NCBI GenBank assembly: GCA_001830045.1
Contig: MIDA01000084.1
Span: forward strand, 1-32,024
Reading direction: 5' to 3'
DNA length: 32,024 bases
Source of the DNA: Tenericutes bacterium RIFOXYA12_FULL_35_10
Lineage (GTDB): Bacteria > Bacillota_I > Bacilli_A > Acholeplasmatales > Acholeplasmataceae
This document shows, one piece after another, positions 2,975 to 25,194 of the stretch; position 1 is the stretch's first letter; each line of letters opens with the position of its first letter. Both the position numbers and the translations under genes were made by a program. Below the pieces are notes generated by a model. The model was not told the DNA's origin. It did not search any database and was given only the letters and a program-made list of their open reading frames with translations.

Positions 2975-3790
2975 ATGAAACTCAAATTGATTATAGTATT
3001 CTTCTTAATATTGTCAGGAACTGTTTGGCTTGTAATCATTAGCAGTATAAATAGTCGCATATATTCGAGAAATCTGATTTCAGCCATCGATGAAAGCAAC
3101 TATGCTAGATTAGAAGAGTTACTTGACAAAAAAGGAAATGTCGATGCAAAACCATATAGTAATTTCCATGCGTTTTTTTTGGAAATCTTTAATGATCCAC
3201 CTTTGTTTTATGCTATCAGAAAAGGGGATATAGAAAGTGTAAAAATGCTTCTTGAACATGGTGCTAATGTCAATCTTGAATCTGATGATTGTAAACCTAT
3301 TATGGTAACGGCATCTAGTGTTAACGTTGAAAGATTTGACATTGCTCATTTGCTCTTAGATTATGGTGCAGATATCGATTATGTAGACCAATGGGGAGTA
3401 ACTCCGGTAGTAAACTTTAATGTCGGTCACAATAGTGATGATGATTATACAAAAGGATACGAGTTATTTTTAAGATTTGTATCCTTAGGTGTGATACCTG
3501 AGAGTTCCAATGAATTTACATATGGTAATTTCTTATTATATGCAGTGACGACGAACAATGTGTTAATCGTAGATTATCTTATCAATTCCATGGATTATAA
3601 CATCCTTTCCACAGGTAAGGATAGAGTTTCTGCATTAATAAGAGCTTCGCAATATCATTCAACCTTGGTTGTTGAATATCTTTTGGAACAAGGTGTTGAT
3701 ACTTCGTATAGAGATGATTACAATAAAACAGTTTATGATTATGCGTTTGAGAAAAACTATAGTGATATTATAAACTTATTAAAGCCATAA
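2975..3790 (+). CDS. Membrane-anchored ankyrin-repeat protein
   Basis: A hydrophobic segment at about residues 4-24 forms a signal anchor. From about residue 30 the protein consists of roughly six ankyrin repeats; the clearest are PPLFYAIRKGDIESVKMLL (about 74-92), the repeat ending LLLDYGADIDYVD (about 125-137) and the last, ALIRASQYHSTLVVEYLLEQG (about 223-243). Ankyrin repeats bind proteins, so this is likely a surface or membrane-bound binding protein; the partner is unknown. GGAGA (2963-2967) precedes the ATG at 2975 with good spacing. No clear promoter or terminator separates it from the lipoprotein gene 78 bases upstream. A second ankyrin protein without an anchor is encoded at 14913. 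Confidence 0.8.
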   Translation: MKLKLIIVFFLILSGTVWLVIISSINSRIYSRNLISAIDESNYARLEELLDKKGNVDAKPYSNFHAFFLEIFNDPPLFYAIRKGDIESVKMLLEHGANVNLESDDCKPIMVTASSVNVERFDIAHLLLDYGADIDYVDQWGVTPVVNFNVGHNSDDDYTKGYELFLRFVSLGVIPESSNEFTYGNFLLYAVTTNNVLIVDYLINSMDYNILSTGKDRVSALIRASQYHSTLVVEYLLEQGVDTSYRDDYNKTVYDYAFEKNYSDIINLLKP

Positions 3791-5495: not shown

Positions 5496-6899
5496 ATGGA
5501 GTTAAAGTTTTTGAGACAAGGGTCAATCGTAGAAGGAACTGTCATCAAAATTGAATCGAATACGATTTACCTCGATATCCAGGCACAAACGGAAGGTAAA
5601 ATCCACCTGGATAATTATGACAAACCCGCACCTGACACGTTCGAGGGTTTAGTCCAAGTAGGACAAAAGGTAAAAGCAAGAGTGCAGAAGATCACCGATG
5701 ATCCTGCGCAAATTCTTTTATCACGCTTACCCCTACTTGTCGAAGAAAAATTCGAAAAAATTCAAGCTTTAGCTCAAACAGGTGAAATCGTTAAAGCTAG
5801 AGTGAAACAAGTCTTAGAGAAAGGACTCGTTTTCAACTACTTAGAAAACGAAGTATTCCTTCCTTACAGTTTATTAGACTTTGAACTTGTGAAAGACAAA
5901 GAAAGTTTAAAGGGTAAGACATTAGAAATTCAAATCGTTGAAGCAACACAAAAAGGTAGAAGTAAGCGTATTGTTGCATCTAGAAAAACGATTTTTGAAA
6001 AAGAAAGACAAGAAGCTTACGAACAAAGACTTCAAGCACGCACTGATGAACTTGAAAACATCAATACAGGTGACGTGATCAAGGGTATTGTTGATAAGAT
6101 TGAACCACATGCTGCAACGATTCGTTTTAATTTCGTTGTTGGTTTATTACGCATTTCTCAAGTGTCACATTTTAGAATTGAAAAGATTGAAGATGTGTTA
6201 ACTTTAGGTCAAGAAGTTGAAGTAAAAGTCATTAAGAAAGAAGGCAATCGCCTAGACCTTTCGATGAAGGCTTTACAAAAGACACCTTATGAAGTGTTCT
6301 ATGAAACACACAAGGTTGGCGATACCGTGACAGGTACAGTTTTCCAAAAATTACCTTTTGGTATTATTGTTGAAGTTGCAAAAGATGTCAGAGGTTTACT
6401 CCATAAGAATGAATTCTCATGGAATCCCAATGACAACTTTGAAGCATACGTCAAGATTGGTGAAGAACTTACTTTAGCGATTATCCAACTTGATTTAAAG
6501 AAAGAACGTATCGCTTTATCTAAAAAATCATTAGAAGACAATCCTTGGAAGAACGTATCCTTAAGACGCGGTGAAGTTGTTTCTGCAAAAGTAACAGCTG
6601 TTTCTAAAGATGGTGTTAAAGTTGAAGTTCAAGGTGTTGAAGGTGAGATTGCTGCAAGCGAACTTGCTGTTGAAAAAATTAACAAACCAGAAGATTACTT
6701 TGCTGTTGGTGATGAAGTGAATGCACTTATTATTGAACTCAGCAAAGAAACATGGACATTAAAATTATCGATTCGTCGTATTTTAGAAAAAGCTGAAAGA
6801 GAATCTTACGAACAATATCTTGAAGAAGATGAAAATGATAAGAACCCTACATTGGGTGATCTCTTTGGCGATAAATTACAAAAGAGCAAGAAAAAATAA
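5496..6899 (+). CDS. rpsA: S1-domain RNA-binding protein (ribosomal protein S1-like)
   Basis: The 467-residue protein contains five S1/OB repeats, at about residues 8-76, 94-163, 190-258, 272-345 and 357-428, followed by an acidic then Lys-rich tail. E. coli S1 has six such domains and B. subtilis YpfD four, so this is an intermediate form. Its place directly after cmk matches rpsA in E. coli and ypfD in B. subtilis. It should bind mRNA and aid translation initiation, though in Firmicutes these proteins are not always true ribosomal components. The third repeat (190-258) lacks some glycines and may not bind RNA. The stop is 24 bases before der. Confidence 0.85.
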   Translation: MELKFLRQGSIVEGTVIKIESNTIYLDIQAQTEGKIHLDNYDKPAPDTFEGLVQVGQKVKARVQKITDDPAQILLSRLPLLVEEKFEKIQALAQTGEIVKARVKQVLEKGLVFNYLENEVFLPYSLLDFELVKDKESLKGKTLEIQIVEATQKGRSKRIVASRKTIFEKERQEAYEQRLQARTDELENINTGDVIKGIVDKIEPHAATIRFNFVVGLLRISQVSHFRIEKIEDVLTLGQEVEVKVIKKEGNRLDLSMKALQKTPYEVFYETHKVGDTVTGTVFQKLPFGIIVEVAKDVRGLLHKNEFSWNPNDNFEAYVKIGEELTLAIIQLDLKKERIALSKKSLEDNPWKNVSLRRGEVVSAKVTAVSKDGVKVEVQGVEGEIAASELAVEKINKPEDYFAVGDEVNALIIELSKETWTLKLSIRRILEKAERESYEQYLEEDENDKNPTLGDLFGDKLQKSKKK

Positions 6900-6923
6900 C
6901 GTTTTTGAAAAGTAGGTTTTAAT

Positions 6924-8228
6924 ATGCCTTATAAGGTAGCAATAGTTGGCCGTCCGAATGTCGGTAAATCAAGTTTATTTAACCGATTGATTGGATCTCG
7001 CCTGTCGATCACTGATGATCAACCTGGTGTGACCAGAGATCGGATCTATGCCAGAGCCGAATGGCTGACCAAGCATTTTAGACTGATAGACACAGGGGGC
7101 ATCGATCTCGGCGATGCTCCTTTTTTAAATCAAATCAAAGCACAAGCGCAAGTTGCGATGGATGAAGCAGATACCATCGTTTTTGTCGTTGATGGAAAAA
7201 CAGGTTTAGTGGATGCAGATTATTACATTGCAAAACTTTTGTATAAAACAGAAAAACCTGTTATTTTAGCAGTAAACAAGATTGATGATTTAGCACAAGC
7301 ACCAAATATCTATGAATTTTATGCTCTTGGTTTTGGTGATCCGATTGCTGTATCTACCATTCATGGTATTGGTATTGGTGATTTATTAGACCGCATTATG
7401 GAACATATGACCGATGAAGACATCAGTTATGATGATTCGATCATTCAGTTTTCCATCGTTGGTAGACCTAATGTCGGTAAATCAAGTTTAACGAATGCCA
7501 TTTTAGGTGAAGAAAGAGTCATTGTTTCTGAGATTTCAGGAACAACGACGGATGCGATTGATACGAGATTCAAAAAAGATAGAAAAGAATATGTCGTCAT
7601 CGATACCGCAGGGATTAAAAAACGTGGTAAAGTCTATGAATCAACCGATAAATATTCGGTTTTAAGAGCTCTTTCTGCACTAGAGCGTAGTGATATCGCA
7701 CTTTTAATTATTGACGGTGAGGAAGGCATTATTGAGCAAGATAAGCACGTTGCAGGTTATATCACCGATTACTATAAAGCATGCGTGATTGTTGTAAACA
7801 AGTGGGATGCCGTTGAAAAAGATGATAAAACCATGAAAAAGATGGAAGAAAAAATTCGTGATGAATTCCAATTTTTAACGTATGCACCGATTGTTTTCGT
7901 TTCAGCAAAACATAATCAAAGAATTCATACCATTTTCCCAGCCATCAATATGGCTTATGAAAATTATCAAAAACAAGTTCAAACGAGCATCTTAAATGAT
8001 TTAATTCAAGATGCAACAGCGATGAATCCAACACCGATTCATAATCATGGGAAAGCACAGTTTAATTACGCAACACAAGTTGCGATTAAACCACCGACAT
8101 TTGTTTTATATGTCAATAATCCAGATTTTGTGCATTTCTCTTATGAACGCTATTTACATAACCAATTACGTCAAGCAATTGACTTTACAGGAACACCTAT
8201 AAAACTTATTTTAAGAAAGAAGGCGTGA
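6924..8228 (+). CDS. der: Ribosome-assembly GTPase Der (EngA)
   Basis: Der has two GTPase domains in tandem and a C-terminal KH-like domain, and helps mature the 50S subunit. Here the first P-loop GRPNVGKS is at residues 9-16, with DTGGI at about 57-61 and NKID in the first domain; the second GRPNVGKSS is at about 180-188, with DTAGI and NKWD following. The KH-like part occupies about 355-434. Length, 434 residues, is normal. The gene ends with TGA (8226-8228), showing that TGA is a stop here, and the next start lies four bases on. It is in the cmk-S1-der-gpsA operon. Confidence 0.96.
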
Positions 8229-14912: not shown

Positions 14913-15884
14913 ATGAGTATCTTCATGAAAGCCGCAGAAAACGATCTCGAATTCGTAAAACTCAATATGACCTATATCGATATGGTCGATGATAAAAAAA
15001 GAAGTTTACTTCATTACGCAGTATTAGGAAGCGCAATGGATGTTTTAACGTATTTACTGGATATGGATATTAATATTAATCTAGCAGATGAACATGGTGA
15101 AACCGCACTTTTTGATTGTGCCAGAAAAGCAAAATTAGATATCTCGAAATTACTTATTTCTAAATTTGCATCCGTTAATGTCGAAAATCGCGTTGGAGAA
15201 CTTCCGATTCATCTTGCAGCATTTAAAGGCGATTTGGATATGATTAAACTCTTGATTGAATCTGGCGCATTCTTAAACAAGAAGACACAAGAAGATAAAC
15301 TTCCAGTGCACTACGCGATTGCTGGTGGTAGAGTCGATGTGATTCCTTATTTACTTAAAGAAGGTAAACAAAACTGGTTTTTAAGAGATGCATACGGAAA
15401 TACACTGCTTCATCATGCAGCAAAAACATCGAATGTTCAGATTTTAGATATGCTTTTAAATCAAAACTTAGATCCAAATGCATTAAACTCACAGTTTGAA
15501 TCACCGATTTTCAATGCTGTTCGTTTTGGTACGATTGAAACCATTCGCTTATTGCTTGCAAGTGATGCATATTTAGATATTCATAACAGACGTTTTGAAA
15601 CACCTGTAGATACAGCGATGATTTTTGATAAACAAGATGTCTTAAAATATTTACAAGATTATATGATGTCACCTAAATATGAACGTTTAGTTCAAAAACA
15701 AGCTTTAGCGATTGCAGTCTTAAATAGAGATCATGTTTATTTAAGAAAATTAATCGAAAAAGATACACCAATGAAAAAAGATCGTCTGCAGAAGACCGCA
15801 TTGGATTATGCAAAAGAATATAATTTAGGACTTTGTGTGAGTCTCTTAAGAGATGTAGAAGTCAGTGGTAATGGAGCACAGTAG
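14913..15884 (+). CDS. Cytosolic ankyrin-repeat protein
   Basis: The 323-residue protein has no signal or membrane segment and is made of about eight ankyrin repeats in series; clear ones are LLHYAVLGSAMDVLTYLLD, the repeat with PIHLAAFKGDLDMIKLLI (about 97-114), PVHYAIAGGRVDVIPYLL (about 130-147) and TLLHHAAKTSNVQILDMLL (about 163-181). The C-terminal part (about 250-315) is a more divergent pair of repeats. Such proteins bind partner proteins; no partner can be named. AAGGTGG precedes the ATG at 14913. Upstream lies an unusual cluster of hairpins with a DnaA-box pair. It differs from the anchored ankyrin protein at 2975 in length and location. Confidence 0.85.
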   Translation: MSIFMKAAENDLEFVKLNMTYIDMVDDKKRSLLHYAVLGSAMDVLTYLLDMDININLADEHGETALFDCARKAKLDISKLLISKFASVNVENRVGELPIHLAAFKGDLDMIKLLIESGAFLNKKTQEDKLPVHYAIAGGRVDVIPYLLKEGKQNWFLRDAYGNTLLHHAAKTSNVQILDMLLNQNLDPNALNSQFESPIFNAVRFGTIETIRLLLASDAYLDIHNRRFETPVDTAMIFDKQDVLKYLQDYMMSPKYERLVQKQALAIAVLNRDHVYLRKLIEKDTPMKKDRLQKTALDYAKEYNLGLCVSLLRDVEVSGNGAQ

Positions 15885-15960: not shown

Positions 15961-16941
15961 ATGAATCCATTTAAATATAAAGATGCCATGCTTCCCATCG
16001 CATCCCTCAACTCATTTATCTTAAATGGTCAAAAAGCAAATGACCTTTTTCGTCCTGATCTACTCCTCAGAGATTTAAAAATCTTATGTCATACCTATCA
16101 ACTTGGTATCGATACGACTTTGATCAAACCTCTTTTAGATGAATTAATTCATCATGAAAACGAGGATGTCAGAAAAGATACGTTTGAGCTTGGATGGATG
16201 TATGGAAGAAGATTAGCAGATTTAATTTGTGCACTTAAAAATCCAACAGAAAGTCAAAAATTAGAAAACTTAAGATGGAAAGAAGAACATTGGGCATACT
16301 GGCATGACATCAAATATCTTTATCTTATGGGTGGTTTAGCATCCTCACCTTATCATGATATCTTTAAACAAGCTATTTTAGAGAAAGTGAAAGACCTAGA
16401 TGTTCACGTGGAACAAGATTCTCAAGATAAGGCACTTTACGGGATGTTAATGCGTTACCCATCCGGTCATTATGTCGTCTTTGATTTTGGTCAGTCCTTT
16501 ATTAAACGAACCTATGTTGTTCGTAAACTCGGTGAAAATATTATCACACGAAAATTAGAACCCATTCAAGCATCTCATTTGGAAGCACCGAAGGAAGATC
16601 GTTTTATGAAACATGCTGAAGATTTAAACCGGTTTATTCTTCAAACGATTATAGATACATTACATGAAGTCTCCGATACCCAAGCAGATGTCTTAATCAG
16701 CATCGCGAATTACGTCAATCAAGGAGAATTAAATCCAGGTAAAAGTAGTTATGGTGTTTTATCTGTTTTATCATCGAATTATGAAAATTATTTGAAAGAG
16801 CAATTATCAGAATTACTTAAAAGAAGAGTTCATGTGATGTTAGAACATGATGCAACCTCGATGTCACATCATGTGTTGCAACGACCAAAAACGGCTGTCA
16901 TCACCTTAGGAACAGCCTTTGGGATTGCGTTTATCGATTAA
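15961..16941 (+). CDS. ROK-like ASKHA protein with apparently permuted motif order
   Basis: The 326-residue protein carries ASKHA sugar-kinase motifs, but in swapped order. First comes a segment like the C-terminal lobe of ROK kinases: GRRLADLICALKNP (about 79-92), then IKYLYLMGGLAS with Gly124-Gly125, which fits the IVLGGG motif, and DKALYGM (about 155-161), which fits the D.a.l.GA end. Then comes the N-terminal lobe: phosphate-1 loop VFDFGQSFIKR (173-183), LEHDATSMSH (294-303) with Asp297 at the catalytic-base position of the ROK NDAN motif, and VITLGTAFGIAF (313-324), the GTGIGGG loop. The distances agree with a circular permutation. The loop has Ala319 in place of a Gly, so activity is uncertain. 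The start at 15961 fits AAGGA at 15946-15950; GTG at 15952 is too close. Substrate unknown; a plain annotation tool would call it hypothetical. Confidence 0.6.
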   Translation: MNPFKYKDAMLPIASLNSFILNGQKANDLFRPDLLLRDLKILCHTYQLGIDTTLIKPLLDELIHHENEDVRKDTFELGWMYGRRLADLICALKNPTESQKLENLRWKEEHWAYWHDIKYLYLMGGLASSPYHDIFKQAILEKVKDLDVHVEQDSQDKALYGMLMRYPSGHYVVFDFGQSFIKRTYVVRKLGENIITRKLEPIQASHLEAPKEDRFMKHAEDLNRFILQTIIDTLHEVSDTQADVLISIANYVNQGELNPGKSSYGVLSVLSSNYENYLKEQLSELLKRRVHVMLEHDATSMSHHVLQRPKTAVITLGTAFGIAFID

Positions 16942-17049: not shown

Positions 17050-17640
17050 ATGTCTAGAGATAAATTATTAAAATTGATTAAAGACAATAACGGATACGTT
17101 CAAACTAAAGACCTAGAAAAATATGGCATCCACCGAGAATACTTATCTATTTTTGTGGAAGAAGAAAAACTTATTCGTGTATCTAATGGCATCTATCAAT
17201 CACCGGATGTATGGAGTGATCCATACTTGTTTTTACAATCTAAAAGAAAAAATATGATATTTTCTCATGACACAGCATTGTATCTTCATGGTCTTACAGA
17301 TCGAGATCCAATCAAACTTACCGCCACTGTTCCAACGGGATATAATACAACACAAATGAAGTCAATCTCTCTTGATCTGTATACCATCAAAAAAGAACTA
17401 TTTCACCTCGGTGAGACACGTATGAAAAGTCCCTATGGCAATGATATAACTGTCTATGATAGAGAAAGAACACTATGTGATATGATTCGCTCAAGAAGTA
17501 AGCTTGATCAGCATATGATTGTTGAAGGTTTAAAGCAATATATTAGATTGGATGATAGAGATATCCATACATTAATGAGTTACGCAAAAGAGTTAAGAGT
17601 CGATAAGATTTTAAGAAACATGTTGGAACTGCTTTTATGA
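17050..17640 (+). CDS. AbiEi-type antitoxin / transcriptional regulator, orphan
   Basis: The 196-residue protein has the AbiEi layout: an N-terminal winged helix (about 1-55, GYVQTKDLEKYGIHREYLSIFV...LIRVSNGIYQSP), the FSHDTALYLHGLTDRDP segment (about 75-91), and the C-terminal domain with ITVYDRERTLCDMIRSR (about 136-152). In type IV AbiE systems AbiEi represses its operon and counters the nucleotidyltransferase AbiEii, whose gene overlaps it downstream. Here the stop TGA (17638-17640) overlaps an ATG (17637), but that frame ends after five codons, and the next gene is on the other strand. The toxin is therefore missing. It may now act as a lone regulator or be an anti-addiction relic. A perfect consensus promoter drives it; RBS AAGGA lies at about 17036-17040. 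Confidence 0.82.
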   Translation: MSRDKLLKLIKDNNGYVQTKDLEKYGIHREYLSIFVEEEKLIRVSNGIYQSPDVWSDPYLFLQSKRKNMIFSHDTALYLHGLTDRDPIKLTATVPTGYNTTQMKSISLDLYTIKKELFHLGETRMKSPYGNDITVYDRERTLCDMIRSRSKLDQHMIVEGLKQYIRLDDRDIHTLMSYAKELRVDKILRNMLELLL

Positions 17641-17715: not shown

Positions 17716-18120
17716 TTAGGATTCAATTAATAAACCACTGAGTAATTGAACACCTTCGGTATAGAGTGCTAAACCAAGGATTAAAATCAAGATAGACATG
17801 ATGAGAATACTGTAAAGATAGATTTTATCTTTTTGAATGCGATAGGTTCTGATTGAATCAATGAGTGATGGGATGGTCCCGATCAGAAAGAGAATGGATA
17901 CGAGTCTTAAGATAAGATTCGTATTTTCTTCATTTAATAGAGCATCTAGACCAAGCATCATTAAGATCACAACGAAGAACATAATGACCGTTAAGACTAA
18001 GAACGCACCTAACTTCTTTAAGATAGGTATAACATAATCTTTAAGTGTATGATGTGATTGAAAGGATAAACCTTTGAAAACCTCTAAGAATGGTTCAAAT
18101 AAATCGGATAAATGAAACAT
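17716..18120 (-). CDS. Small membrane protein of unknown function
   Basis: The 134-residue protein has an N-terminal amphipathic part (about 1-34) and then three membrane helices, at about 36-57, 68-84 and 100-128. I do not recognise a family. On the minus strand GAGGGGG lies six bases before the ATG (18118-18120). It begins 22 bases after the stop of the glucanase gene and is the last gene of the minus-strand group, before a terminator. Confidence 0.65.
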   Translation of the reverse strand: MFHLSDLFEPFLEVFKGLSFQSHHTLKDYVIPILKKLGAFLVLTVIMFFVVILMMLGLDALLNEENTNLILRLVSILFLIGTIPSLIDSIRTYRIQKDKIYLYSILIMSILILILGLALYTEGVQLLSGLLIES

Positions 18121-18142: not shown

Positions 18143-19048
18143 CTATTTTAAAGCATCTTTCGCATAAGCTTTTGGGTTTCTATTCACATCATAGATGCCC
18201 CAATGTTTTTCTGGTTCATCTAATTGATCGGATCCCTTCCAGGGTTCATCGAAGGCTTCAAAAATAAACATGGTCACATTATTTTTCTTTGCCCAAGGCA
18301 TGATTTGATCTAAATACATTTTTTGATAAGCTTCATTGGTTTCTTCTTTAAGCATAGGACCATTTGACATGGTTGCCCAGCCAAATTCAGTGAAGACAAC
18401 AGGTTTTCCTGGAAATGTTTTAACGGTATCTTCATAATCTTTAATGGTCATAGATACTGCATCTTTTAACGGTGTTTTTAACCATACGGGATAGGAATGA
18501 ATTGAGATAAAATCAACTGCTTCAGCAATCACATGGCCATGACTGATCCAATTATACGCACCCTCACAAAAAGTTACAGGTTGTTCAATTTTTCCTTTTA
18601 AGTAAGTCGCATAGCTTGCGATCGTTTCTGGTTTCATTAAGTTATGATGCCAAGAAGAAGTGTTTTCATTACCAACGCTTGCTGCTAAGACGATATCGCC
18701 ATAGGTGTTGCATAGTTGAGCAAGTTCATCTAATTGTTTAAAATTAAATGTCTTATTATAAAGAATTTCTTCATCAGAGTGAAGTCCTCCCCAAGGACAG
18801 TTTGGATTACTGATCTCTCCTCTTGGTTCAACACCGAGCATGACTTTTAAATCAATCTGATGTGTTTTAATAACATGTAGTACAGTTTTCGCATGATCAT
18901 AGGGATCATACATACGAATGTATTTAAAGTTTTTTGATAACAACATTAAGTCTTCTAAAACTTCAGCTTCGCTTGGAAAATTGTGTTCTCTTGGGCTTTG
19001 GTTTTCTCTATAGCCAGAATAACAAATGGCTGGTGCGGTTTTAAACAT
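18143..19048 (-). CDS. GH17-type glycoside hydrolase (exo-beta-1,3-glucanase-like)
   Basis: The 301-residue protein is a TIM-barrel hydrolase of the family 17 type. It opens with ICYSGYRENQSP, then has IRMYDP (44-49), the acid/base motif SVGNENTS with Glu128, SIHSYPVW (182-189) and the nucleophile motif TEFGWAT with Glu221, then FEAFDEPWKG near 255-264. The motif order and the 93-residue distance between the two Glu fit GH17 beta-1,3-glucan hydrolases. There is no signal peptide, so it should act inside the cell, which is unusual for a polysaccharide hydrolase; the substrate may be a short glucan or glucoside. It lies 12 bases after the CPBP gene in one minus-strand operon. Confidence 0.82.
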   Translation of the reverse strand: MFKTAPAICYSGYRENQSPREHNFPSEAEVLEDLMLLSKNFKYIRMYDPYDHAKTVLHVIKTHQIDLKVMLGVEPRGEISNPNCPWGGLHSDEEILYNKTFNFKQLDELAQLCNTYGDIVLAASVGNENTSSWHHNLMKPETIASYATYLKGKIEQPVTFCEGAYNWISHGHVIAEAVDFISIHSYPVWLKTPLKDAVSMTIKDYEDTVKTFPGKPVVFTEFGWATMSNGPMLKEETNEAYQKMYLDQIMPWAKKNNVTMFIFEAFDEPWKGSDQLDEPEKHWGIYDVNRNPKAYAKDALK

Positions 19049-22194: not shown

Positions 22195-25194
22195 ATGCGT
22201 CTTGCTGACGTCTTAAAGCTTCCTAAACAACCTCATAGTCTTTCGATTATTAAAGACTTCCTTGAACAACCGCTCTCGCATACAGATTACCAGGCGGCTT
22301 TTAGTTATTACTTTGATATTTGTCTATCTTTAGAAGCCTATGATCAAGTGTTTCAAGAAGGAACCAAAGTCTTAAAAGAGATTGAACTTCAAGTTGAAAC
22401 ACCTTACTATGAAAAGATCTTAAAAGCGATGATTGATGCATCTTTTCACTTATCTAAACTAGATGAGATGAAAACATACATCCAACTCAGAAAAGAAAAA
22501 CTACCCATTTTAAAACAATACTTAGGACTGCTCGATGACATCATGTATAAGAAAGCTTTGCAGCTTCCTTATTTAGATGATGTTTTACGTATCTTAAAAG
22601 ATGTGATTCCAACCGACACTAAAATATTTTGTCATCAGGAATTGTTTTATATCTATAAGCATGATGCACAACATGAGATGGCTTTAAATCAGATCTATGA
22701 ACTTTATAACTACGATTTAAAACATCAGTACATCTACGATGAACTTGATCTATTATTAAAATTAAATCGCTTTGATGAAGTAATTCAAAAAGCTTTAAAA
22801 GAATTAAGAGATCACCCCAAAGAAATCAAATGTTTAAGACCACTCATTACAGCCTATCTTCAAAAAGAAGACTACCATAAAGCATCAACACTTCAAGCAG
22901 AATATGATGATCAAATCGAAGATGCAGATGATGAAACGAAAAAATCACTTTATGAACTTTTTGTCATCCTCTATCAAAAGATGGATCATAAACCATCCGT
23001 TGATTTCTATTCCAAAAAGTTAAAAACGATCCAAAAAACACTAGAAAAGAAAGCACCTCAAAAAGTAGATATTGAAAAACCAAAAGAAGAAAAAATTGTT
23101 TTCGTCGAAAAAGTACCTGAAAAGACATTAAGTCATCCAAAGATGTTAGAAGACTTAGAAAGAGCACAAGATTTAATCGTCTTCGCACACTTAATCGATG
23201 ATAAACTTCCCTTAAGAGAGTATTTAAGACAATTTTTTATTCAAGTAGAGACCTATTTAAAAGTCAAAGACTATATTATCTATCTTGAAGGTGAATCACC
23301 GAATCTCTTTCACTACAAACAAGAAAGACTTTATGATAAAACGATATTACCGCAGTTTCTTGATGAAAGCATTGTTGATTTTGTTCTTAAATCTTTAGAA
23401 GAAGTGGTTGAAGAGACCAACGGTTTAAAACTTACCAAAAATATCATCACGCAAAAAGATTATGAAGAAGAGATCAAGTTTGTTTACGCATTTCCATTAG
23501 GCGATATTGGCGTCTTCTTAATCCATATCGAAGAAGAGATTAAAGACCCAGGCATTCATTATGATTTTTTAAAACTGATTTCATCCATTCTTTTTGGACA
23601 TCTTTTAGATGAAAAGAAGTTATCCAAAATGAAAGAAGAAAATAGATTTTATCAATCTGCGTTAAACGCCCCCATTCTATCATATAGGGAGCTATCAGAA
23701 CATCAATCTACCTATAATGAGTCCGCTCAAAAACTGTTTAGAATCGACTCACATCACCACCTAGAACTGTTTTTAAGAGATCTTTCGTATGAACATGTCT
23801 CTTTATATAAAGAAACGATTCAAAGGCTTTTAAACAAGTCTGGTGAAACCAAAGAACTACGTTACAGATACCAAGAAAAGCACATCTTAGAAAAACTTTA
23901 TGGATTAAAGATAGGAGATGAGCATATCGTGATGAGTCTATTTTTTGATGAAACTGCAGGGGTTAGTGAGGTAAAACAATTGCTTGATCAAGCAACATCA
24001 GATCCAGAAACAGATCTTGGGAATCGCTATTTATTTAGCCAAGAATCTGAAAAGTATTTAAAGGATAAAGCATCCTTTTTACTGATTGAATTAGATGAAC
24101 AGCTCAAGCATATCTACGGTCACGAACAGATGAAAAAGTATTTTAAAGAGTTTGCACAACACACCAAAAAATTCTTTAGTGAAGGTGAGACTTACCGTTA
24201 TGACTTTAATCAACTCTTAGTGGTCTTACCTGTTAATGACATCAGAAGTGTCACCAAGAGTGTTAAAGATTATTTAAGATATTTAGAAGTTTATGAATCT
24301 AAAGTCTTAACGTATGAACGGTTTAACGTCAATATCGGTATTTTAAGATATCCGGTTGTCACAATCGAAAAAAGCATGGAGAAAATCTTACGTTTTCTTG
24401 ATATCGCGCTCGAAAGAGCGAAGCGCGATAAAGAAGACAAATATGTTTTCTTTGTTTACCGTGATTATGAAGATGAACTGTTTGAACAACAAGTGATCGA
24501 TCATTTAAATATCGCGATTGAAGAAAGAAGTTTAGGTTTAGTCTTTAATCAACTGACAGACATTAAAAAAAATAGAGTATGGCAATATGAAAGTGAACTC
24601 GCACTTTTAAATTTATCCATTGATAACAAATATTTAATGGCGATTGCTAAAAAAAGACATCGTTTAGCAGATTTAGAAAGATTTCATATGAAGAAAGTGT
24701 GTGAGTTTTTAGTTGAACTTGAAAAGAAAACGGAAAGACTCATTAAGATCACGATTCCTGTATCTAAAGAAACCTTTTTAGATCCTACGTTCAACCCCTT
24801 CTTACTGGGAACTTTAAAAGAATATGGCATTCCCTATGAATTTATTCGCATTAAATTTGATATGGAATTAAGAGCTAGTCATTATGCCAATCAAATTCAA
24901 GAACTGATTGACTTAGGTATTGCCCTAGATACCACCTCACTAGAGATGGCCTTAAGTTATCCCTTTCATGCACTTCATCTCGATATGAAAAAAGAATCGA
25001 TTAAATGGAATAGCTACGTTTCTAAAGTCAAAGAAATGCTTGAGTCATTTCAAATGGCTTTAGTCATCAGAAATGTTAAAACAAAAGATCAAAAAGATGC
25101 ACTTGAAAGATTAGGTGTATCCTTTGTTGAAGGTTCGTTATATAAACAACTGCCTGCACCGATCTTAATCCAAAAAATTAAGGAGTCCTTATGA
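22195..25194 (+). CDS. Large TPR-GAF-PAS-GGDEF-EAL protein with degenerate catalytic sites
   Basis: A 999-residue soluble protein. By eye: TPR-like helical repeats (about 1-275), a charged linker (about 283-310), a GAF-like domain (about 318-475), a PAS-like domain (about 485-590), a GGDEF-like domain (about 597-750) and an EAL-like domain (about 765-995). The GGDEF domain begins DPETDLGNR (603-611), as in DxLTGLxNR, but the GGDEF loop reads GETYRYDFNQL (664-674), so the signature is lost. The EAL region keeps FNQL (784-787) and Glu799/Glu801, but DDFG is DTTS (912-915) and the KID lysine motif is HLD. The end, VEGSLYKQLPAP, matches the standard QGY...P.P end of EAL domains. I infer a c-di-GMP-like or other nucleotide receptor, not an enzyme. 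It is coupled to the HEPN-like gene by an ATGA overlap. Confidence 0.72.
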   Translation: MRLADVLKLPKQPHSLSIIKDFLEQPLSHTDYQAAFSYYFDICLSLEAYDQVFQEGTKVLKEIELQVETPYYEKILKAMIDASFHLSKLDEMKTYIQLRKEKLPILKQYLGLLDDIMYKKALQLPYLDDVLRILKDVIPTDTKIFCHQELFYIYKHDAQHEMALNQIYELYNYDLKHQYIYDELDLLLKLNRFDEVIQKALKELRDHPKEIKCLRPLITAYLQKEDYHKASTLQAEYDDQIEDADDETKKSLYELFVILYQKMDHKPSVDFYSKKLKTIQKTLEKKAPQKVDIEKPKEEKIVFVEKVPEKTLSHPKMLEDLERAQDLIVFAHLIDDKLPLREYLRQFFIQVETYLKVKDYIIYLEGESPNLFHYKQERLYDKTILPQFLDESIVDFVLKSLEEVVEETNGLKLTKNIITQKDYEEEIKFVYAFPLGDIGVFLIHIEEEIKDPGIHYDFLKLISSILFGHLLDEKKLSKMKEENRFYQSALNAPILSYRELSEHQSTYNESAQKLFRIDSHHHLELFLRDLSYEHVSLYKETIQRLLNKSGETKELRYRYQEKHILEKLYGLKIGDEHIVMSLFFDETAGVSEVKQLLDQATSDPETDLGNRYLFSQESEKYLKDKASFLLIELDEQLKHIYGHEQMKKYFKEFAQHTKKFFSEGETYRYDFNQLLVVLPVNDIRSVTKSVKDYLRYLEVYESKVLTYERFNVNIGILRYPVVTIEKSMEKILRFLDIALERAKRDKEDKYVFFVYRDYEDELFEQQVIDHLNIAIEERSLGLVFNQLTDIKKNRVWQYESELALLNLSIDNKYLMAIAKKRHRLADLERFHMKKVCEFLVELEKKTERLIKITIPVSKETFLDPTFNPFLLGTLKEYGIPYEFIRIKFDMELRASHYANQIQELIDLGIALDTTSLEMALSYPFHALHLDMKKESIKWNSYVSKVKEMLESFQMALVIRNVKTKDQKDALERLGVSFVEGSLYKQLPAPILIQKIKESL

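Follow-up and report, generated by a model that had tools for sequence, protein, structure and literature searches.

The ASKHA superfamily, to which the ROK kinases, hexokinase, Hsp70 and actin belong, has an ancient and widespread fold of two lobes, whose motion against each other drives function. The active-site motifs of hexokinases and of type II pantothenate kinases follow one another in the canonical order, and the ROK proteins have two hallmarks, a zinc motif (C-x-C-G-x-x-G-C-x-E) and an E-x-G-H motif. ASKHA proteins can also be without kinase activity, as in the ROK repressors and the TsaD-type proteins. Circular permutation is known in other folds. ADP-dependent glucokinase and 2-dehydro-3-deoxygluconokinase have a fold different from ASKHA. 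A segment swap between these last two enzymes is reported in the part of a 2007 survey of non-sequential alignments considered here (PMC2213659), while the part considered of a 2005 kinase classification allows permuted topologies within a fold group and names no permuted ASKHA family (PMC1079889). The portions of two further papers (PMC7824862, PMC10326533) had no bearing on permuted ASKHA proteins. In the literature searched, which consisted chiefly of titles and abstract openings and had most subscription papers and the bioRxiv preprints outside its scope, we recognised no description of a permuted ASKHA kinase.

Here we describe a gene whose product is probably an ASKHA-fold phosphotransferase that has undergone natural circular permutation, so that the chain begins and ends inside lobe II. 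It lies in a stretch of 32,024 nucleotides from Tenericutes bacterium RIFOXYA12_FULL_35_10, analysed as a whole and called the window below. The motif names and roles (adenosine motif with GG, phosphate-1, catalytic Asp, phosphate-2) are assigned from the ASKHA literature and are our assumption. The features are as follows.

14913-15884, + strand: ankyrin-repeat protein, by Pfam; it has a counterpart upstream of the gene in L004
15946..15952, + strand: ribosome-binding-like site AAGGAAG, 8 bases upstream of the ATG, read from the sequence
15961..16941, + strand: gene of the putative permuted ASKHA-like protein, 326 aa, ATG at 15961, stop included
15961..16452, + strand: first half (residues 1-164), proposed to supply lobe II from strand 3 onwards, on the basis of a weak match to ROK 240-321 and secondary structure
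16276..16302, + strand: Trp-rich stretch, residues 106-114, just before the GG strand; W106 and W114 invariant
16318..16344, + strand: LYLMGGLAS, residues 120-128, proposed adenosine motif; GG invariant in 17/17
16450..16470, + strand: residues 164-170, where the old C-terminus is proposed to meet the old N-terminus; helix 157-163 precedes and strand 171-176 follows
16453..16938, + strand: second half (residues 165-326), proposed to form lobe I together with the first lobe II hairpin, on the basis of the profile match to the ROK N-lobe
16483..16509, + strand: DFGQSFIKR, residues 175-183, phosphate-1 motif, in 17/17
16702..16716, + strand: IANYV, residues 248-252, where the substrate side is proposed to begin; I248-Y251 invariant, role inferred
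16846..16866, + strand: HDATSMS, residues 296-302; Asp297 would be the catalytic base, and H296 and D297 occur in 17/17
16909..16932, + strand: GTAFGIAF, residues 317-324, phosphate-2 motif at the C-terminus; GT[AK]FG in 17/17

The open reading frame at 15961-16941 is a real gene. It agrees with its description in an earlier, sequence-only reading of the window, and all the motifs quoted there are present, although LYLMGGLAS occupies residues 120-128 and not 121-128. Many stops interrupt the opposite strand in the one frame read. The family is under purifying selection, with dN/dS (Nei-Gojobori) of 0.10-0.16 in five pairs of members, four of these values being rough owing to a dS above 1. Taken alone, the window protein had no meaningful match among the families of Pfam and NCBIfam, nor any among PDB sequences (E up to 10).

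Relatives could be identified in 19 distinct genomes, comprising 3 of the 20 of the window's genus (its own genome included) and 16 of the 49 of f16, another family of the same class. At the level of the order, the gene was present in 3 of 160 genomes, and in a sample of the class in 12 of 395, the window's own being counted in both. The class count had been 13 before G263 was dropped, its match (E 1.3e-5, with two internal stops) being judged a chance one at a locus whose long reading frame looks like a SAM synthetase. Beyond the window's phylum, coverage consisted of a contig scan with two short patterns, IMG/VR, and plasmids and phages. The scan yielded at least three loci that were matched by a three-row alignment, with the titles Acholeplasmataceae bacterium, uncultured Acholeplasma and 'Bacillales' MAG; no relative was found in IMG/VR, nor among plasmids and phages searched with the L005 protein. 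The three members from the genus grouped together with 90% bootstrap support (200 trees), although long branches meet there, and they may derive from one acquisition. The family alignment, A3, holds 17 rows from 17 genomes in which the gene is whole or nearly whole; it leaves out G353 and G452, where the gene is in pieces at contig ends, on two contigs each. Fifteen of the 16 other aligned members are 32-37% identical to the window protein.

Along the chain of all 17 aligned members, the motifs come in the order GG, phosphate-1, catalytic Asp, phosphate-2, as scored with the patterns GG, D-x-G-Q-[ST], H-D-[AT]-[ST] and G-T-[AK]-F-G, and the canonical ASKHA order is thus found in none of them. 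As a control, 42 ROK proteins were gathered, 28 of the 30 loci L009-L038 and 14 of the 27 loci L067-L093, the latter passing a filter for D-x-G-G-T and a reading frame over the locus centre of at least 250 aa. All 39 that could be scored had phosphate-1, Asp, phosphate-2 and then GG. The shared order in 17 of 17 members, most of them so distant from the window protein, together with the low dN/dS, indicates that the arrangement is more than chance. The lack of any meaningful Pfam, NCBIfam or PDB family match for single sequences might have raised the suspicion of a ROK gene that is degenerate, frameshifted or wrongly assembled, or of another fold with motifs that resemble those of ROK by chance. 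Against this stand the recurrence of the order in 17 different genomes, the purifying selection and the ASKHA fold matches of two structural models described below; we regard such an artefact as extremely improbable and reject it on the strength of the 17-row alignment and the dN/dS values.

The alignment has 35 invariant columns, 18 of which fall within residues 120-128, 175-183, 248-252, 296-302 and 317-324. Gln178, Lys182 and Phe320 are among the invariant residues, as are S154 and G161 in the first half. The distances between motifs had been thought to fit a ROK kinase once the chain is rotated. They are indeed near the ROK values, but not one of the four ranges overlaps (16 of the 17 rows, L004 being left out for its masked start, against 39 of the 42 ROKs): 121-123 in the family versus 89-104 in ROKs from phosphate-1 to Asp, 21 versus 24-27 from Asp to phosphate-2, 133-144 versus 111-127 from phosphate-2 round to GG, and 51-56 versus 58-85 from GG round to phosphate-1.

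The ROK proteins (PF00480, glucokinase type) are among the nearest described systems, sharing with the family the phosphate-1, catalytic Asp, phosphate-2 and GG motifs. In profile comparisons, their N-lobe resembles the second half of the family protein and their C-lobe, weakly, the first half. They differ in having the unrotated order, and the family has a Gln in phosphate-1 and an extra Trp-rich stretch before the GG. The original assignment to the ROK family proper was too narrow. PF00480 was absent from the Pfam matches of all 17 native members (E up to 1), the zinc motif occurred in 0 of 17 members versus 30 of 42 ROKs, and E-x-G-H in 0 of 17 versus 41 of 42. The best PDB sequence match of the second half was yeast hexokinase-1, weak at E 0.19 and colinear from phosphate-1 to the Asp, followed by a designed protein at E 0.35. 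For the first half, a HMMER search of the PDB found no ASKHA chain, the best matches being saposins (E 0.37). The window's genome has five PF00480 matches, three of them above 80 bits, so the family protein is not its only kinase of the ROK kind. Eight loci of the genus with weak PF00480 matches were considered as unpermuted sisters and rejected, as they hold BadF-like proteins instead. In the proteins of L058-L065, from the same genus, which we take to be BadF-type and of ASKHA fold, the motif order is canonical, unlike that of the family.

The proposed permutation can be followed in profile comparisons (hhalign). In native order, the 17-row profile matched a profile of 28 ROKs in two places, columns 285-333 to ROK 104-157 (P 5e-4) and columns 76-175 to ROK 240-321 (P 0.08), with a third, chance match. 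When the family was cut at residue 165, the point of rotation suggested by the sequence-only reading, the best match was a single long colinear alignment of columns 60-334 to ROK 53-318, with 226 columns; against 42 ROKs the rotated alignment had 216 columns. A scan of 28 cut points gave alignments of at least 175 columns at only ten cuts, those at columns 180-288, and a cut at column 173 likewise gave a long alignment of 216 columns. The top score was 38.3 at most cuts, so rotation adds colinear length and not score. With four family rows in place of the 17, the two matches were not joined in the rotated profile. In HMMER comparisons of the family profile with single ROK sequences, all matches were weak (best domain E 0.02), and of the 25 rows listed for the native profile, 9 had all or some of columns 120-176 aligned to the C-terminal end of the ROK. 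A BadF-type profile had no match to the family in native or rotated order.

Taken separately, the two halves differ in strength. The second half is clearly similar in sequence to the ROK N-lobe, as judged from its score of 35.1, which was reached by 0 of 300 column shuffles. The first half appears weakly similar to the ROK C-lobe, with a score of 19.2 reached by 9 of 300 shuffles; against the 28-ROK profile it scored 21.0, which 16 of 1000 shuffles reached without a condition on the diagonal and 1 of 1000 when the match also had to lie no more than 20 away from the diagonal expected. As a positive control, BadF-type proteins scored 28.3 with their C-terminal part against the same profile, which indicates that C-lobe matches are weak at such distances. 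One could ask if only residues 165-326, that is lobe I and the phosphate-2 hairpin, derive from an ASKHA protein, with residues 1-164 unrelated and mostly helical and their GG coincidental. This would account for the weakness of the C-lobe match and the lack of a PDB sequence relative of the first half. It sits poorly with a match that falls on the expected diagonal, with the invariance of the GG, S154 and G161, and with a modelled first half that runs helix-strand-helix-strand-helix as lobe II does; a lone lobe I would moreover miss half of the ATP site. We consider it improbable.

AlphaFold models, built from four sequences each, were obtained for the window protein (model 1; pLDDT 76.6, pTM 0.77) and the L005 protein (model 2; pLDDT 74.7, pTM 0.74). 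Read from residue 165, model 1 has strands at 171-176, 180-187 and 195-199, a helix at 212-237, a strand at 244-249, helices at 263-269 and 274-286, a strand at 290-295 and a helix at 297-304; strands at 311-315 and 321-324 follow, then a short hairpin at 20-25, several helices including 68-93, a strand at 119-123, a helix at 131-142, a strand at 147-150 and a helix at 157-163. In this predicted structure, the order of the elements from residue 165 fits a pair of RNase H-like lobes in which the chain is broken after strand 2 and before strand 3 of lobe II. The swapped order first proposed from the motifs is supported by their arrangement in 17 of 17 members, the rotated profile alignment, the shuffle control and the predicted order of secondary structure.

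In fold searches ASKHA proteins predominate, with modest E-values and low TM-scores. Judged by title or known fold, at least 44 of the best 50 PDB matches of model 1 (of 758, E up to 10) belong to ASKHA, the others being one SDR, two enoyl-CoA reductases, two ribosome chains and one entry of unclear title; for model 2, all of the best 50 (of 924, E up to 10) were judged to be ASKHA. The best E-values were 1.1e-3 for model 1 and 3e-4 for model 2, and the TM-scores under sequential alignment were mostly 0.2-0.3, which would be expected of a permuted chain and equally of mediocre models. In a viral library, the better matches included Hsp70, actin-related and RuvC-like proteins, with none at E < 0.001. 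Heading the fold matches of model 1 are four chains of the human hexokinases I and II, duplicated proteins of ~890-900 aa; the alignments span 374-411 columns, with an rmsd of 32-37 A. In our own reading, lobe I of the second half comes after lobe II of the first in such chains, which is the succession seen in the family protein. Type II pantothenate kinase (PDB 4m7x, 4nb4), an ASKHA kinase of similar size, is among the best matches of model 2, with TM up to 0.32 and 10-11% identity in the fold alignment. Counting against a permutant are the P of 0.08 for the first half, whose score some shuffles also reach and which has no ASKHA chain among its PDB matches, the lack of a score gain on rotation, the missing BadF-profile match in both orders, the modest fold matches of models built from four sequences and the spacings that do not overlap.

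The genomic neighbourhood differs between members. An ankyrin-repeat gene stands before the family gene in both the window and L004, and in L006 the family gene is followed by two genes resembling Nudix hydrolases. In f16, the gene lies between two RlmD-like genes in all nine regions read (of the 16 genomes with the gene), and a YjbQ gene just precedes it in six of the nine; neighbour families were assigned by hmmscan for L096 and by BLAST to L096 for the other regions. We also read the corresponding slot in 18 f16 genomes (L103-L120), chosen from the 33 without the gene for having both RlmD-like genes close together on one contig. The stretch between the RlmD-like genes held a relative in 0 of the 18 (no HMMER match below E 0.1), and no unpermuted ancestor was seen in the same slots. 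The slot is therefore variable, which makes the neighbourhood weak evidence for function, and a functional tie to rRNA methylation was rejected.

Several other observations were made in these regions. In L103-L120 the RlmD-like paralogues stay near each other while the genes between them differ, some being, by eye, antiporter-, endonuclease/exonuclease- or prenyl-synthase-like. The RlmD-like gene after the family gene at G406:C26:22583-23802 is in two pieces, with stops inside one, and looks broken or mis-assembled. Two genes past the family gene in L095, a reading frame at 6617-7390 (-) matches an APH(3') family model (232.2 versus a cut-off of 205 bits), a putative function. Within the window, a second ankyrin-repeat-like protein, judged by eye, is encoded at 2975-3790 (+), and an AbiEi-type antitoxin domain (PF13338, E 8e-7) at 17050-17640 (+), with no same-strand partner directly downstream, the next listed reading frame (17716-18120) being on the other strand. 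The 301-aa product of 18143-19048 (-) matches glycosyl hydrolase family 17 over part of its length, with a score under the cut-off, and has a relative near the gene in L004, and the last part of the 999-aa product of 22195-25194 (+) resembles divergent GGDEF/EAL domains by eye.

Could the protein be a permuted ASKHA protein other than a kinase, such as a sensor of sugars or nucleotides, an ATPase partner or an enzyme linked to RNA modification? The place between two RlmD-like methyltransferase genes in nine of nine f16 regions is suggestive, ROK repressors and TsaD-type proteins provide ASKHA precedents, and, compared with ROK, an Ala in phosphate-2 and a Gln in phosphate-1 are out of the ordinary. 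The variability of that slot argues the other way, as do the different placement of the gene in the window and in L006 and the presence in 17 of 17 members of the Asp expected as the base. We hold this to be rather unlikely. The Ala had also raised the idea of a pseudokinase; the Asp and G-T-x-F-G occur in 17 of 17 members, and the Ala itself in 16, L046 having Lys.

Judging from the sequence and given the ASKHA fold, the likeliest activity, which we favour with some reserve, is that of a cytosolic small-molecule kinase, perhaps for a sugar or polyol; ATP use, phosphotransfer and substrate are candidate roles. In the permuted chain, a short turn around residues 164-170 would connect the old ends. 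The new ends would lie within lobe II, after its first hairpin, GTAFGIAF, which forms the present C-terminus, and before its third strand, which has come to stand near the N-terminus. The lobes would close on Mg-ATP, with the phosphates held by DFGQS and GTAFG and the adenosine by GGLAS. Asp297, in a role presumed to carry over from ROK kinases and hexokinases, would be the base that acts on a hydroxyl group of a small substrate, which IANYV and the loop that follows it would hold.

The permutation is a possible reason for the lack of any Pfam, NCBIfam or PDB family match. Divergence plays a part as well, since four members searched as rotated copies also gave no PF00480 match (E up to 10) and no meaningful Pfam family. 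We lean slightly towards regarding this as the first known natural permutant of the ASKHA fold, an active and selected enzyme family that has had its chain ends relocated to the sheet of the phosphate-2 lobe and has gained a Trp-rich stretch before the adenosine motif; our confidence is held lower by the spacings, which do not overlap those of ROKs, and by the limited literature search. In a natural permutant the active-site motifs are kept, but the covalent connections inside each lobe and from one lobe to the other are shifted, and the dependence of catalysis and domain closure on chain connectivity thereby becomes testable.
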